From: Candidatus Izemoplasma sp.
GTDB lineage: Bacteria > Bacillota_I > Bacilli_A > Izemoplasmatales > Izemoplasmataceae
Assembly: GCA_007117885.1 (NCBI GenBank)
Contig: SKFS01000135.1
Location: forward strand, 1 to 36,185
Direction: 5' to 3'
DNA length: 36,185 nt
The notes under the pieces were generated by a model. It ran no database searches. It was not told the DNA's origin and saw only the letters and a program-made list of their open reading frames with translations. Below are positions 1 through 12,859 of this stretch, piece by piece; position 1 is the stretch's first letter; every line of letters starts with the position of its first letter. Made by a program: the position numbers and the translations under genes.

Positions 1-106
1 ACTCACCCGTTCGCCACTGAAAACCCCGAAGGATTTTCCGTTCGACTTGCATGTATTAGGCATGCCGCCAGCGTTTATCCTGAGCCAGGATCAAACTCTC
101 CATAAA
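1..106 (-). rRNA. rrs: 16S rRNA, 5' end only (partial)
   Basis: Read on the minus strand, positions 99-81 give the universal 16S start AGAGTTTGATCCTGGCTCA. It is followed by the usual GGCGGCATGCCTAATACATGCAAG stretch, recognisable at 76-48. The gene starts near 106, about seven bases before the AGAGTTTGAT motif as in other bacteria, and runs off the left edge, so only helix 1 to about helix 6 is present. It is transcribed away from proS, from the promoters at 236-373. Confidence 0.97.
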
Positions 107-8427: not shown

Positions 8428-9462
8428 TTATTTTAATGCTTCAATAAGTTCAGCTTTACGTAGTTTTGAATATCCAGTTAAACCACGATCTTTAGCGATT
8501 TCTCTTAACTCTGCAACGGTTAATGTTTCAAGATCAACCGTTTCAGTTTTAGGTTCTTCCTTCGGTGATTCTTCAACACGCGGTTTTGCTTCAACTTTAG
8601 GCGCTTTTTTCACTTCGGGTTTTTCTTCAGCTTTAGGCGCTTTTTCAGCCACTGGTTTAACTTCTACTTCAGGGGCTTTTTCACGCTTTGGTTTTACAGT
8701 TTCTTTTTTAGGTTCAGCAACTTTTTCAACTCTAGCTGGTCTTTTCACTTCGGGTTTTTCTTCTTCCTTAGCTTCTTCAATACCGCCACTACCTTCAACC
8801 ATAGCATTGGCCATTGTACTAACGATAACTTTAATTGAACGAATCGCGTCGTCATTCGCAGGAATAGCGAAATCAACTTCGTCAGGATCACAGTTTGTGT
8901 CAACCATACTATAAACAGGAATCCCTAATTTGCGGGCTTCTAAAATCGCGTTACGCTCTTTTTTAGGATCGACAATAAAGACCGCTTCAGGTAAGGTACG
9001 CATATCTTGAATGCCCCCTAGAAAAGCTTCTAGGCGGTTTAACTCTTTACGTAACCCAATGACTTCTTTTTTAGGTAAACGTTCAAACGTTCCGTCTTTT
9101 TCCATTTGCTTAATTTGATGCAAACGGCGGACACTTTTACGGATGGTTTTAAAGTTTGTTAAGGTGCCCCCTAACCAACGTTTTGAAACATAGTATTGCC
9201 CTGAACGCGTCGCCTCTTCAACAATTACGTCCTGTGCTTGTTTCTTTGTCCCTACAAACAACACTTTACCGCCTTCTTTAGCGATAGCGTGTAAACGTTG
9301 ATACGCTTCCTCAATTAAGACAACGGTTTGTTGTAAGTCAATAATATGAATGCCGTTGCGCGAAGTGTAAATAAACTTCGCCATTTTTGGATCCCAACGA
9401 CGGGTTTGATGTCCAAAATGAACACCTGACTCTAATAATTGTTTCATTGTAATGACTGCCAT
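8428..9462 (-). CDS. rpsB: Ribosomal protein S2 with long charged linker and C-terminal Rho_N/SAP-like module
   Basis: Small-subunit protein S2. Residues 1-225 are a normal S2 ([64 protein letters not shown]). After residue 226 an 85-residue tail rich in Lys, Glu, Pro, Ala and Val follows, with repeats of the type [19 protein letters not shown]. It ends in a folded-looking segment at 312-344 ([20 protein letters not shown] and KAELIEAL), which resembles the small helix-extended-helix module found at the N-terminus of Rho and in SAP domains. At 344 aa it is about 100 residues longer than usual. The reading frame is continuous. Strong GGAGG start site; long leader and its own promoter upstream. 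Confidence 0.96.
8590..8765. repeat. Degenerate repeats coding for the S2 linker
   Basis: Within rpsB, the plus-strand words TTTTCACTTCGGGTTTTTC (near 8609 and 8744) and TTTAGGCGCTTTTT (near 8596 and 8632) recur. They encode the EKPEVK/KAPKxE units of the linker, so this looks like slippage or unequal-exchange growth of a disordered segment. The units stay in frame. Confidence 0.7.
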
Positions 9463-9477
9463 AAATTAATCCTCCTT

Positions 9478-9588
9478 AGTTTTTTTTGATTTTACCTCCA
9501 CAAACGTCTTCGTGTTGTTCCCACTTTACGGTCGCGTAAAGCTCTTGAGAAAACACTCTCCTTGTGTGTGTATTTTACGGCATTTAGT
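9478..9588 (-). promoter_or_regulatory. Structured 5' leader of rpsB
   Basis: About 120 nt separate the predicted transcription start from the rpsB ATG. On the minus strand there are two clear hairpins: CTTTAC/GTAAAG around GCGACC (about 9542-9525), and ACAA-C-ACG/CGT-TTGT with an AAGA loop and one bulged C (about 9518-9500). The region is otherwise non-coding. S2 is known to repress its own mRNA in some bacteria, so an autoregulatory site is plausible but unproven. Confidence 0.45.
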
Positions 9589-9617
9589 AGTATATCAAAA
9601 AAACACTTGGAGTGCAA
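9589..9617 (-). promoter_or_regulatory. rpsB promoter, -35 inside the upstream terminator
   Basis: -35 TTGCAC (9617-9612), 17-bp spacer, -10 TATACT (9594-9589). The -35 lies in the loop and 3' arm of the terminator hairpin that ends the B12 operon. This is the only good promoter before rpsB. Confidence 0.75.
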
Positions 9618-9625
9618 GTGTTTTT
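9597..9625 (-). terminator. Intrinsic terminator of the B12 uptake operon
   Basis: Minus-strand AAAAACACTTG (9625-9615), loop CACTC, CAAGTGTTTTT (9609-9599) with the T-run continuing to about 9597. It lies 13 bp after the stop codon of the S-component gene. As a symmetric stem with A and T flanks it could also work in the other direction. Confidence 0.85.
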
Positions 9626-9637
9626 CCTTAATATTGT

Positions 9638-10168
9638 CTAATTCAAGATTTCCTTTTCACGATTGAATCCTAAGGCATCCATTTCAAAATTGAGGGTTGT
9701 ATAAAGTGGCTTATACAGCCATAGAATGGTAATAAAGTTACTGACGGCCATAATGATTTGAAAAGGAATATCGAGCATTAGATACGGCCAAAATTCAGTA
9801 ATGCCAAGTTCTACCATTCTAAAAGGGATAAAAACCCAACCATAATAAAACCCATAAAGCAAGCCAAAGACCGCGAGTTTAACCTCCGATTTAGTCTGTC
9901 CTAAAACGGTGTAGTAAAGCAGTGGAATCGTAAGCCAGGCCAGCAACATCGCTGGCGTATAAATGGGATTAAATGAGTTCATGTAAAGGTTATCCAAAAT
10001 TACATAGATCACAATCATCGCGACACTTTCACGCCATTTAAACAAACTCACGTATAAAACTAATAATAACGTCGTAAACTGGACATTAGGTATAATGGTT
10101 AATATTTGCTCTTGGACAAAGACAATTGTAATGCACATCGCCATAAAAATCAGTCGTTTTAAAGGCAT
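9638..10168 (-). CDS. ECF transporter S component, probably for cobalamin (CbrT-like)
   Basis: Small hydrophobic protein (176 aa) with about six membrane segments, the size and layout of ECF substrate-binding S components. These pair with a shared EcfA-A'-T energising module encoded elsewhere. The N-terminal part has QEQILTIIPNVQFTTLLLVL, and the middle has GLLYGFYYGW. Substrate assignment rests mostly on context: it is the third gene behind a cobalamin riboswitch and follows two DUF4430 proteins. A TTG at 10180 could extend it by four codons, but the ATG at 10168 is more likely; it starts 1 nt after the preceding stop. A different corrinoid precursor cannot be excluded. Confidence 0.8.
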   Translation of the reverse strand: MPLKRLIFMAMCITIVFVQEQILTIIPNVQFTTLLLVLYVSLFKWRESVAMIVIYVILDNLYMNSFNPIYTPAMLLAWLTIPLLYYTVLGQTKSEVKLAVFGLLYGFYYGWVFIPFRMVELGITEFWPYLMLDIPFQIIMAVSNFITILWLYKPLYTTLNFEMDALGFNREKEILN

Positions 10169-10169
10169 C

Positions 10170-10601
10170 TTAATGTCCAATCCTCTGATAGACGAAGTAA
10201 TAGCGATTGCCGTCCACTAAAGGAATTGAATCAATCCCTACAGGGGAAAGATCGTTGTCCATAAGCAATGGCTCTGCACCACTTCGTAGCAATTGACCTG
10301 AAATCCTTATCTGAATAAAATCGCGCTCAAAATCCGTTTTCACCGATTCAAAATCAAGGAGAATTCTCCCAATGCTCGTGGTTGTGTAACGCAAAGTATA
10401 GTTTTGATCAAGAACACCGAGTAAGGTATCCCCTTCTTTAAAGGATAGACGATCTTCAATGATAATCGAACCGTCTTCAGCCACCACAACCACCATAACA
10501 TTGCCGATGCCATCGGGTTGTTCATAGGGTGTGTCGACCGTGAGAATCGTCCAAAATACCGCCATTACAATAATAACGAGAGCACTCGCAATTACTTTCA
10601 T
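10170..10601 (-). CDS. Membrane-anchored DUF4430 (transcobalamin beta-domain-like) protein
   Basis: 143 aa. One N-terminal hydrophobic segment (residues about 3-21, no lipobox Cys) would anchor it with the rest outside. The remainder is a predicted beta domain of the DUF4430 type, with FKEGDTLLGVLDQNY (about 54-68) and the closing VDGNRYYFVYQ (129-139). DUF4430 is related to the C-terminal cobalamin-binding domain of animal transcobalamin. Good start: AGGTGG 4 nt before the ATG. It sits between the large lipoprotein and the S component. I infer a role in capping or handing corrinoid to the S component; no catalytic motif is visible. Confidence 0.75.
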   Translation of the reverse strand: MKVIASALVIIVMAVFWTILTVDTPYEQPDGIGNVMVVVVAEDGSIIIEDRLSFKEGDTLLGVLDQNYTLRYTTTSIGRILLDFESVKTDFERDFIQIRISGQLLRSGAEPLLMDNDLSPVGIDSIPLVDGNRYYFVYQRIGH

Positions 10602-10616
10602 ATTACCACCTAATTT

Positions 10617-12023
10617 CTAATCAAAAATATACGGATTGGTCCCTACATTTGTAAGGATAAACTCATCAAGCATAACAAGTGCTAAAAATGCTTGAGGTGT
10701 TGAAAACATTGCGTCTGGTTCAGTGGTCCAGTTAAATGTTCCATCAGGATTTTGAAAACTGATAAACACTTCAAGTAAGCTTTCTTCTGAACTATTATAA
10801 TACCGTGCACTCATCGGGTTCTTATCAACGCTCAATAAGCCGATAATCACATTCGCAAATGTCGCGGCGTTATCACCAAACTCACTTGTGTATAGGCGTT
10901 GTTCAATTTCTTCCAAACTTTGCCCGATCAACTCGTTAGTTTCTTCATGATTCAGCAATGATAAGGCGATAAGCATCATTGACAAGGTATCTAAATCGGT
11001 TGTACTTAGGTTTTGTGTTGCCATCGCATCGCGTAAATCGGCTTCAAACGACTCAAGATCAAGTTGATCATTCGTTTTAAGTGCCGCATAAACCAAGGAC
11101 GTCGTATAAAGATGGCCGATCGTTTTGATTTCATACAAGGCTTCTGTGCTCGCTTGGGTATCAAAACCAAGGGCATTTTCGATAAAGATACGACTGACTA
11201 AACCACCGACGGTCTCGGGTAAGGTTTCATCGAGTTCAATCGTATACTCATCGAGTATCCCTAACTGTGCTAGCCCGATAATCACATGGTAATTCGGTGG
11301 CAAAAGGTAATCCTCCACACGGTTTTCTACCATAAGATTTAATGCTTCATATACCCTCTGAGCATCAAGATGCCACCACTCTTTAACAAAGCTAAAGTGA
11401 TCAAGATGGTGATACGGCGTGCTTTCCACACCGGTCATGGCAAATTCATCATTAATGTAAAAGGCGATAAAACTGCCAAAGGGCGCATCGATGGTGTCAA
11501 TTCCGAGAATTTGTTGGCCCCACTCCGTTTCAATCGAACGGACATTAAAGGTGCTATTAAGCAATTGCCATAAAGAGGCTTCGGCATCGTCATAAAATCG
11601 AACGACACGGGTTTGTGCTTTTTCGCCTTCACCGACTGTGATCGTAAAATACCCGTCGTAGCCATCACGGAATCGCTCGAGTTCTAATAGGCTTTCTTGT
11701 AACTGAGCGATGTCTGCTTCTTTATCAGAAAGTGCTGTTTGAAGCGCTTCAATTTGGATGGTTAAGTCTAAAATCGTTTCTTCAAGTGCCTCGATTTCCT
11801 CAAGGTAGTTTGCTTCTTCATTTAATCTTTCTAGCTTGTCTTCAAGCTCTTTCAGGCGATTCTCTTTATCCCCTAAAATTAGTTCATAACCTTCGATTTG
11901 GTTATTTTTGGCTTCAACTGTTTCTTCGAGTTCTTGAATTTGATTGAGATACTCTTCTGCATCGCAAGCAACCATCAAAAACGCTAAAAATACTAGTGTC
12001 ACCAGAGAGAATAGTTTTTTCAT
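10617..12023 (-). CDS. Transcobalamin-like lipoprotein: coiled coil, DUF4430 domain, alpha/alpha toroid-like domain
   Basis: 468 aa, starting at the ATG at 12023, which has GGAGG 6 nt upstream; an open frame to 12080 runs back into the riboswitch terminator. Residues 1-19 are a lipoprotein signal peptide ending MVA-C20. Residues 21-117 form a long acidic coiled coil. Residues about 120-215 match the DUF4430 beta fold (YFTITVGEGEKAQTRVVRFY through FIAFYINDEFAMTG). Residues 218-468 are all-helical and resemble prenyltransferase/squalene-cyclase-type alpha/alpha toroids, with the repeat-like NPDGTFNW and STPQAFLALVMLDEF near the end. Animal transcobalamin and intrinsic factor hold B12 between an alpha6/alpha6 barrel and a DUF4430-like domain; here both are present in reverse order. 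With the riboswitch upstream, surface B12 capture is the best reading. The fold match is by eye. Confidence 0.75.
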   Translation of the reverse strand: MKKLFSLVTLVFLAFLMVACDAEEYLNQIQELEETVEAKNNQIEGYELILGDKENRLKELEDKLERLNEEANYLEEIEALEETILDLTIQIEALQTALSDKEADIAQLQESLLELERFRDGYDGYFTITVGEGEKAQTRVVRFYDDAEASLWQLLNSTFNVRSIETEWGQQILGIDTIDAPFGSFIAFYINDEFAMTGVESTPYHHLDHFSFVKEWWHLDAQRVYEALNLMVENRVEDYLLPPNYHVIIGLAQLGILDEYTIELDETLPETVGGLVSRIFIENALGFDTQASTEALYEIKTIGHLYTTSLVYAALKTNDQLDLESFEADLRDAMATQNLSTTDLDTLSMMLIALSLLNHEETNELIGQSLEEIEQRLYTSEFGDNAATFANVIIGLLSVDKNPMSARYYNSSEESLLEVFISFQNPDGTFNWTTEPDAMFSTPQAFLALVMLDEFILTNVGTNPYIFD

Positions 12024-12050
12024 TTTGTCCTCCTTATGCATGTTATTAAT

Positions 12051-12074
12051 AAAAAAACCATCCTCCTGGATGGT
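12051..12074 (-). terminator. Riboswitch-controlled intrinsic terminator
   Basis: Minus-strand ACCATCC (12074-12068), loop AGGA, GGATGGT (12063-12057), then a T-run to 12051. It lies between the cobalamin aptamer and the lipoprotein start. The segment CCAGGAG within it (12069-12063) can pair instead with an upstream CTCCTGG (12135-12129), so it is a switchable terminator. Confidence 0.88.
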
Positions 12075-12135
12075 AACCACGCATATTATTCTAAACGACG
12101 TTTAGCTAATAGACGTTACTACTCATACCCAGGAG
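12063..12135 (-). promoter_or_regulatory. Antiterminator pairing of the cobalamin riboswitch
   Basis: CTCCTGGGT (minus, 12135-12127) is complementary to ATCCAGGAG (12071-12063), 9 bp with one G-U. The second partner is half of the terminator stem, so the two helices exclude each other. A local palindrome CTAAACGTCGTTTAG (about 12104-12090) sits between them. The first partner lies just after the aptamer, where B12 binding could sequester it. Confidence 0.65.
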
Positions 12136-12139
12136 TGTA

Positions 12140-12302
12140 AACTTTAGAAGATAAGGTAGGTCTACCGGCTTAATATCATCCTACTTTGCACCTTCCCGCC
12201 GAAGCAGTGGTCTCGCATTTCGTCCATATTACGGTTGCTGGGACAGCCTGGGATTCTCACCCAATTCCCTGTTATGTTAAAACACCTAATCTTTCTATCT
12301 TA
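12140..12302 (-). promoter_or_regulatory. Cobalamin (adenosylcobalamin-class) riboswitch aptamer
   Basis: The minus strand carries the class hallmarks in order: ACAGGGAATTGGGTGAGAAT (5' core), CTGTCCCAGCAACCGT, the ACCACTG helix segment, CGGCGGGAAGGTGC, and the B12-box AAGCCGGTAGACCTACCT (12171-12154). P1 can form between AAGATAG at about 12302-12296 and TTATCTT at about 12148-12142. It precedes the terminator/antiterminator pair and the B12-uptake genes, so high cobalamin should switch the operon off. Subclass cannot be settled by eye. Confidence 0.93.
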
Positions 12303-12331
12303 AGTGTAGAGAGTTCGCTTTTAAAAGTCAA
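12303..12331 (-). promoter_or_regulatory. Promoter of the B12 riboswitch operon
   Basis: -35 TTGACT (12331-12326), exact 17-bp spacer, -10 TACACT (12308-12303). Transcription would start near 12296, at the 5' side of aptamer P1. It is back to back with the dut promoter. Confidence 0.8.
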
Positions 12332-12379
12332 GGTTTTCTCAAAAATACTTGATAATTCACATCGTTAAACAAGCGAACG

Positions 12380-12388
12380 TGCTATAAT
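12380..12388 (+). promoter_or_regulatory. dut promoter, extended -10
   Basis: TGCTATAAT is a perfect extended -10 (TGn TATAAT) 28 bp before the dut start codon. No good -35 is seen at the right distance, as is common for extended -10 promoters. It diverges from the riboswitch promoter about 50 bp away. Confidence 0.7.
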
Positions 12389-12415
12389 AAAACAAACACG
12401 AAAAGGAATGATACA

Positions 12416-12859
12416 ATGAGAGGATTTAAAATTGCTAATGGGTATCAAACCCGTACCATAAAACTGCCCCAAAGAAGTACAAAAAAGAGTGCAGGCTATG
12501 ATTTTGAAATCATCGAGGATATCCAGATTGAACCGGGTGAAATCAAGCTCGCTCATACGGGCATCAAAGCTTATATGCAAGACGATGAAGTCTTAAAACT
12601 GTATCCAAGGAGCTCCTTACCCAAAAAGTTTGGTGTTACGATTCCAAATAATGTGGGCATTATTGACGCCGATTATTTTGGAAACCCCGATAACGATGGG
12701 GCGATTTTTGTGTCGTTATACAATTTCACAAATAAAACGCAATTCATCCCAAAAGGGACCCGAATTGCGCAAGGAATCTTTATCAAATACTTAAAAACTG
12801 AAGAAGACCACCCCTTAAGCGATAATCGCAATGGTGGTTTTGGTAGCACAGGAACTTAA
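12416..12859 (+). CDS. dut: dUTP diphosphatase (trimeric dUTPase)
   Basis: Hydrolyses dUTP to dUMP and pyrophosphate, keeping uracil out of DNA and feeding thymidylate synthesis. All five motifs are present: motif 1 KKSAGYDF, motif 2 PRSSLPKK, motif 3 GIIDADYFGN (Tyr and catalytic Asp), motif 4 GTRIAQGIF and motif 5 NGGFGSTGT at the C-terminus. Length 147 aa. ATG start with AAGGA 8 nt upstream. It is the only forward-strand gene in the window, monocistronic with its own promoter and terminator, and convergent with fabZ at a distance of 20 bp. Confidence 0.96.
   Translation: MRGFKIANGYQTRTIKLPQRSTKKSAGYDFEIIEDIQIEPGEIKLAHTGIKAYMQDDEVLKLYPRSSLPKKFGVTIPNNVGIIDADYFGNPDNDGAIFVSLYNFTNKTQFIPKGTRIAQGIFIKYLKTEEDHPLSDNRNGGFGSTGT

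Follow-up and report, generated by a model that had tools for sequence, protein, structure and literature searches.

The window, by which we mean the whole 36,185-nucleotide stretch analysed (contig SKFS01000135.1, positions 1 to 36,185 of the forward strand, assembly GCA_007117885.1, Candidatus Izemoplasma sp.), contains a three-gene operon that very likely serves riboswitch-repressed cobalamin (corrinoid) uptake in an Izemoplasmatales bacterium that is probably a B12 auxotroph. A preliminary description of this DNA had proposed a B12-regulated operon with transcobalamin-type parts and a vitamin S component, made up of genes for a DUF4430 lipoprotein, a membrane-anchored DUF4430 protein, and a six-helix S component. 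All three genes are present on the minus strand, and the riboswitch, the domain folds, and a relation of the S component to CbrT agree with that reading. The order on the minus strand is riboswitch, terminator hairpin, lipoprotein, small DUF4430 protein, and S component, with the following features.

12138..12304, minus strand: cobalamin riboswitch aptamer (RF00174), covariance-model match of 86.6 bits
12057..12074, minus strand: intrinsic terminator hairpin of the riboswitch expression platform, 7-bp stem and T tract, from a hairpin scan
10617..12023, minus strand: lipoprotein of 468 amino acids, with lipobox Cys20 and domains placed by alignment and model
11370..11663, minus strand: lipoprotein DUF4430/transcobalamin-type beta-grasp domain, matching 5no0 and 5np4 (TM to target 0.79 and 0.78)
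10620..11369, minus strand: C-terminal helical domain of the lipoprotein, alpha/alpha-toroid-like in the predicted model (~12 helices, pLDDT mostly >90)
10170..10601, minus strand: small DUF4430/SLBB protein of 143 amino acids, with one N-terminal transmembrane segment and no lipobox
9638..10180, minus strand: putative ECF S component of the CbrT branch, 180 amino acids from TTG, by model fold and profile relation to 6fnp
9599..9625, no strand assigned (called on the plus strand): end-of-operon hairpin with T tract

The ATG at 12023, which follows AAGGAGG, fits as the lipoprotein start. A longer version beginning with GTG at 12080 was rejected because it starts inside the leader, upstream of the terminator hairpin. 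The 5' end of the S-component gene overlaps the small DUF4430 gene, and an alternative in-frame ATG lies at 10168. The terminator expected at the end of the operon is represented by the 9599-9625 hairpin, whose minus-strand reading likewise finishes in a T run. A promoter-like site at 12331-12303 was no better than chance (7 sites found in the promoter scan versus 7.8 expected). The operon is flanked by a dut-like gene on one side and by rpsB-tsf, named from sequence, on the other. At the contig end, positions 1-106 (minus strand) hold the 5' end of a 16S rRNA gene.

The cobalamin aptamer noticed earlier upstream of the genes is a full-length RF00174 match (E 3e-20), well above the gathering cut-off of 31.5 bits, and it is the single match found in the 1.75-Mb draft. 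Between the aptamer and the start codon lies the leader terminator hairpin, ACCATCC-AGGA-GGATGGT followed by T7. A scripted search recovered this kind of hairpin at 35 of the 39 homologous loci, mostly as close variants of ACCATCCAGGAGGATGGT-TTTTTT. The four loci in which it was not found (L055, L056, L057, and L060) all have a two-gene form of the operon; in three of them only 13-16 bases separate the end of the aptamer from the start codon, pointing to translational control by the riboswitch there. The folding energy of the window's leader is not exceptional (z -0.3), a value that says little because the aptamer depends on its ligand. Judged from sequence, the leader is a predicted riboswitch-controlled expression platform with a conserved terminator.

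Single-sequence searches of the window proteins against Pfam, NCBIfam, and PDB returned only coiled-coil noise and a sub-threshold ECF match, so family alignments were needed. In plasmid records nothing matched the lipoprotein, and a distant small protein had a single weak hit. The lipoprotein has homologues in 42 of 61 relatives, and its lipobox Cys20 is invariant across the 33 homologues aligned. Behind this cysteine follow a predicted coiled coil (residues ~21-118), a DUF4430/SLBB domain (~121-218), and an alpha/alpha-toroid-like helical domain (~219-468). The AlphaFold model (mean pLDDT 89.8) shows a long helix, which we read as the coiled coil, then a small beta domain and ~12 further helices. 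The Pfam family for DUF4430, PF14478, was not detected in either of the window's own DUF4430 proteins, which are too diverged for a direct match, but it matches 30 of the 33 lipoprotein homologues (best 4e-14).

The modeled beta domain has the secondary structure order E E H E E E E, that is, a beta-grasp with a beta hairpin after the helix. Its top structural matches are the apo and B12-bound human transcobalamin beta domains listed above, and the next is the DUF4430 structure 3u7z. The earlier assignment of a DUF4430 region to the lipoprotein is thus borne out by its homologues and its model. The helical domain, described before as toroid-like, matches intrinsic factor (2pmv_B, TM to target 0.55) and, equally, other alpha/alpha toroids in a high-confidence model. 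The family profile gave no significant relation to the transcobalamin II alpha domain (E 0.4). We therefore describe this part as a predicted toroid-like fold without demonstrated specific kinship to transcobalamin. The model presents both folds that structure prediction had been proposed to look for, and the joining of an alpha/alpha toroid to a beta domain is present in it, with no significant sequence relation for the toroid.

The small protein belongs to the same domain class. PF14478 matches 25 of its 37 homologues (best 1e-7), and the small-protein and lipoprotein DUF4430 families match each other in a profile-profile comparison (99.4%, about 2e-21), which upholds its earlier assignment to DUF4430. 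In many small DUF4430 proteins (alignment A1), the helix is followed by an extended loop that carries two cysteines (CAD..Y.....C). This loop sits where the ligand-contacting hairpin of transcobalamin lies, and the window copy lacks both cysteines.

Modeling of the third protein (pLDDT 92.6) gave the six-helix S-component fold that had been suspected. The first structural matches are S components, the best being 4huq_S, RibU, FolT, and PanT, though these matches are of limited strength (best E 0.026, probability 1.0); against Pfam alone the protein reached only 0.004, below the cut-off. A profile of the Izemoplasmatales-type S family (A2) searched against PDB returned capsid noise only and missed 6fnp, so intermediate sequences were used. 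The S protein of a distant relative (L123), whose next gene encodes an adenosyltransferase, has one PDB match, 6fnp. A profile of seven distant non-Izemoplasmatales S sequences matches 6fnp at 1.1e-29 and recovers the window S protein at 7.8e-15 together with all 87 family members, while recovering no other frame among 3,036 sequences. The combined S profile matches 6fnp only (2.8e-25). Another S-like protein of the same genome showed no relation to the CbrT-type profile. We take 6fnp (6fnp_A) to be the Lactobacillus delbrueckii B12 transporter ECF-CbrT. The profiles thus join the window protein to CbrT, rather than to an S component of another vitamin family, and place it, through intermediates, in the predicted CbrT branch.

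The preliminary description had also suggested looking for the same three-gene set under Rfam cobalamin riboswitches. We found RF00174 at all 38 loci scanned in relatives from the order, most of which carry the three genes in the same order; most loci of the family also have dut and rpsB as neighbors. A riboswitch before the operon at 38 of 38 loci makes the unit conserved far above chance. At more distant loci RF00174 was found in 12 of a further 15 (missing at L104, L105, and L106). The same operon occurs in a same-genus genome (G001, contig SKIW01000112.1, Candidatus Izimaplasma bacterium CSBr16_77). The location beside dut/rpsB is unusually stable for a vitamin uptake operon: in the window (8428-12859) and at L132-L135, the operon or its two-gene form stands next to dut or rpsB across families. 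In several relatives (L095, L097, L099, and L108) the operon is followed at a short distance by a lysine riboswitch (RF00168).

In other members of the class, DUF4430 genes stand beside S-component genes (L110, L113, L114, L116-L118, L123-L125, L127, L130, L132-L135, and L138) or have genes for an EcfT-like protein and an ABC ATPase as neighbors (L111, L115, L121, L122, and likewise L112), in part with a cobalamin-class riboswitch. Of the EcfT-like proteins tested, the one in L111 alone passed the CbiQ cut-off, and for L112 and L122 Pfam gave no match. In the wider Bacilli, DUF4430 genes also precede genes for corrinoid adenosyltransferases, which come from two unrelated families: the next gene encodes a PF01923 adenosyltransferase in L123 (also in L127, by N-terminal sequence) and a BtuR-type enzyme in L124. 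A system of DUF4430 proteins with an S component is real and widespread.

The source genome is a 1.75-Mb draft in 167 contigs, ~90% complete, which makes gene absences provisional. It encodes EcfA, EcfA', and EcfT, a PduO-type adenosyltransferase, and two AdoCbl mutases, lysine 5,6-aminomutase and glutamate mutase. No match was found in the ~90% draft for CbiC or CobS, two markers of B12 synthesis, or for a FecCD/BtuC-type permease. An organism that depends on B12 but shows neither its synthesis nor uptake by BtuCDF needs some other importer, and the operon is the only riboswitch-controlled importer candidate found in the genome. From its gene content, the organism is probably a B12 auxotroph. 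Elsewhere in this genome, L153:3168-15425 is a lysine fermentation cluster (lysine 2,3- and 5,6-aminomutase) with PduO a few kb upstream.

Cobalamin-class riboswitches also govern cobalt transport and synthesis genes, so that cobalt or a corrinoid precursor comes into question as the substrate. We consider import of cobalt or another metal extremely improbable, and cobalt transport was rejected on genome context. The DUF4430 structure 3u7z is labeled a putative metal-binding protein and CbiQ-type genes occur near DUF4430 in relatives, but the S component groups with CbrT, adenosyltransferases neighbor DUF4430 in relatives, and the lack of a CbiC match in the ~90% draft leaves no visible cobalt need for corrin synthesis. 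Uptake of the precursor cobinamide or of other cobamides instead of cobalamin is also improbable, if less so. ECF-CbrT was shown to transport cobinamide as well as B12 (Santos et al. 2018, PMC5997447); against this, the genome has PduO but no CobS match in the ~90% draft, and the route from cobinamide to a complete cobamide therefore seems closed.

We propose that cobalamin uptake would proceed as follows. At low intracellular B12 the leader would be read through. The lipoprotein, held off the membrane by its coiled coil, would, in the manner of animal transcobalamin, capture a corrinoid between its helical toroid and its DUF4430 domain. The small membrane-anchored DUF4430 protein would sit beside the S component and help either in docking the carrier or in covering the ligand. 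From there the corrinoid would pass to the CbrT-type S component, powered by the shared EcfA-EcfA'-EcfT module, whose genes lie elsewhere, and PduO would make AdoCbl for lysine 5,6-aminomutase and glutamate mutase. We infer corrinoid binding by both surface proteins, the order of hand-off, and the use of the shared module.

The step from lipoprotein to S component might pass through the membrane-anchored DUF4430 protein acting as a detachable beta-domain lid, a proposal we hold tentatively, at slightly under even chances. Three loci (L098:3606-4475, L108:3335-4273, and L089:373-1269) encode a toroid-only lipoprotein, the beta domain being found only in the neighboring small protein, and this suggests a separate DUF4430 lid. 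We judge it rather unlikely that the S component and ECF module alone transport B12 while the surface proteins work separately, either in remodeling or as scavengers that concentrate the vitamin at the surface. This arrangement would fit the L. delbrueckii ECF-CbrT, for which the accessible text of PMC5997447 reports B12 transport in vitro and mentions no extracellular partner, as well as the relatives that lack the large lipoprotein (L055, L056, L057, and L060). At almost all loci examined, on the other hand, the small DUF4430 gene adjoins the S gene, and in those same four loci its product is kept, with a lipobox-like cysteine of its own replacing the plain transmembrane anchor (a strict lipobox pattern caught two; the other two read FMGC and IMGC). 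Small proteins carry this cysteine only where the large lipoprotein is absent. Adjacency and retention together speak for a partner of the S component on the membrane side.

In other loci the lipoprotein beta domain is duplicated in tandem (L024, L026, L039, L044, and L051) or triplicated (L058). Together with the lipobox swap and the split forms, these tandem domains suggest that the locus variants are interchangeable parts of one predicted corrinoid-binding assembly at the membrane. A second, diverged pair of small DUF4430 and S-component genes lies beside the main operon at L035:102-1745, in a contig of Ca. Izemoplasma acidinucleici, and also in L080 (genes 390-1290). The L035 pair has its own cobalamin riboswitch, and these second pairs possibly have a different corrinoid specificity.

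In animal transcobalamin and intrinsic factor, B12 lies sandwiched by an alpha/alpha barrel and a beta domain, and the likeness of the window lipoprotein lies in the fold of its beta domain. It differs in the reversed order (beta then alpha), in being lipid-anchored with a coiled coil, in the absence of receptor-mediated endocytosis, and in a toroid with no significant sequence relation to that of transcobalamin. The host, moreover, is a wall-less bacterium.

The outline of such a system was predicted in 2007. Burroughs et al. (PMC1796856) described a transcobalamin-like SLBB domain (DUF4430, PF14478) in low-GC Gram-positives, fused to toroids in either order, along with extracellular paralogues that come in pairs and operons containing CbiO/CbiQ. 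They noted missing B12 synthesis, proposed B12 scavenging, and placed the origin of animal transcobalamin in such bacteria. The earlier remark that dedicated extracellular partners would be unusual for an ECF system was accordingly overstated, since scavenging proteins of this kind with CbiO/CbiQ genes had been predicted there, and since a Lacticaseibacillus protein is already labeled "Additional lipoprotein component of putative cobalamin ECF transporter" (PMC9963975). The latter paper also reports a DUF4430 protein of unknown function next to rtpR. The accessible text of PMC1796856 makes no mention of a riboswitch, ECF, or S component; the window operon differs from those proteins in its partner, a putative CbrT-branch S component, in its coiled-coil spacer, and in belonging to Izemoplasmatales.

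CbrT itself was predicted by Rodionov 2009, as cited in PMC5997447, and the L. delbrueckii cluster reads nrdJ-cbrS-cbrT-pduO. At a guess, cbrS encodes a DUF4430 protein. The window system resembles ECF-CbrT in the predicted S-component branch, the shared ECF module elsewhere in the genome, the B12-dependent enzymes, and PduO; it differs in low sequence identity and in its surface protein partners, which the accessible text of PMC5997447 does not discuss. The surface lipoproteins BtuG and BtuH of Bacteroidetes likewise capture B12 ahead of a transporter but, by their descriptions, belong to other systems built from other proteins: in BtuH a C-terminal domain of its own binds B12, and no DUF4430 is named in the accessible text. 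We found no binding experiments on bacterial DUF4430 proteins in the open-licence literature searched.

Together, the operon joins three literatures, namely the bacterial transcobalamin-like scavengers of 2007, the CbrT transporter, and riboswitch control, and it bears on the origin of animal B12 carriers. If the proposed carrier-fed transporter is correct, an ECF S component would be served by dedicated extracellular carriers. For the organisms themselves, the operon accounts for how Izemoplasmatales that, like this one, seem not to synthesize B12 may obtain it.
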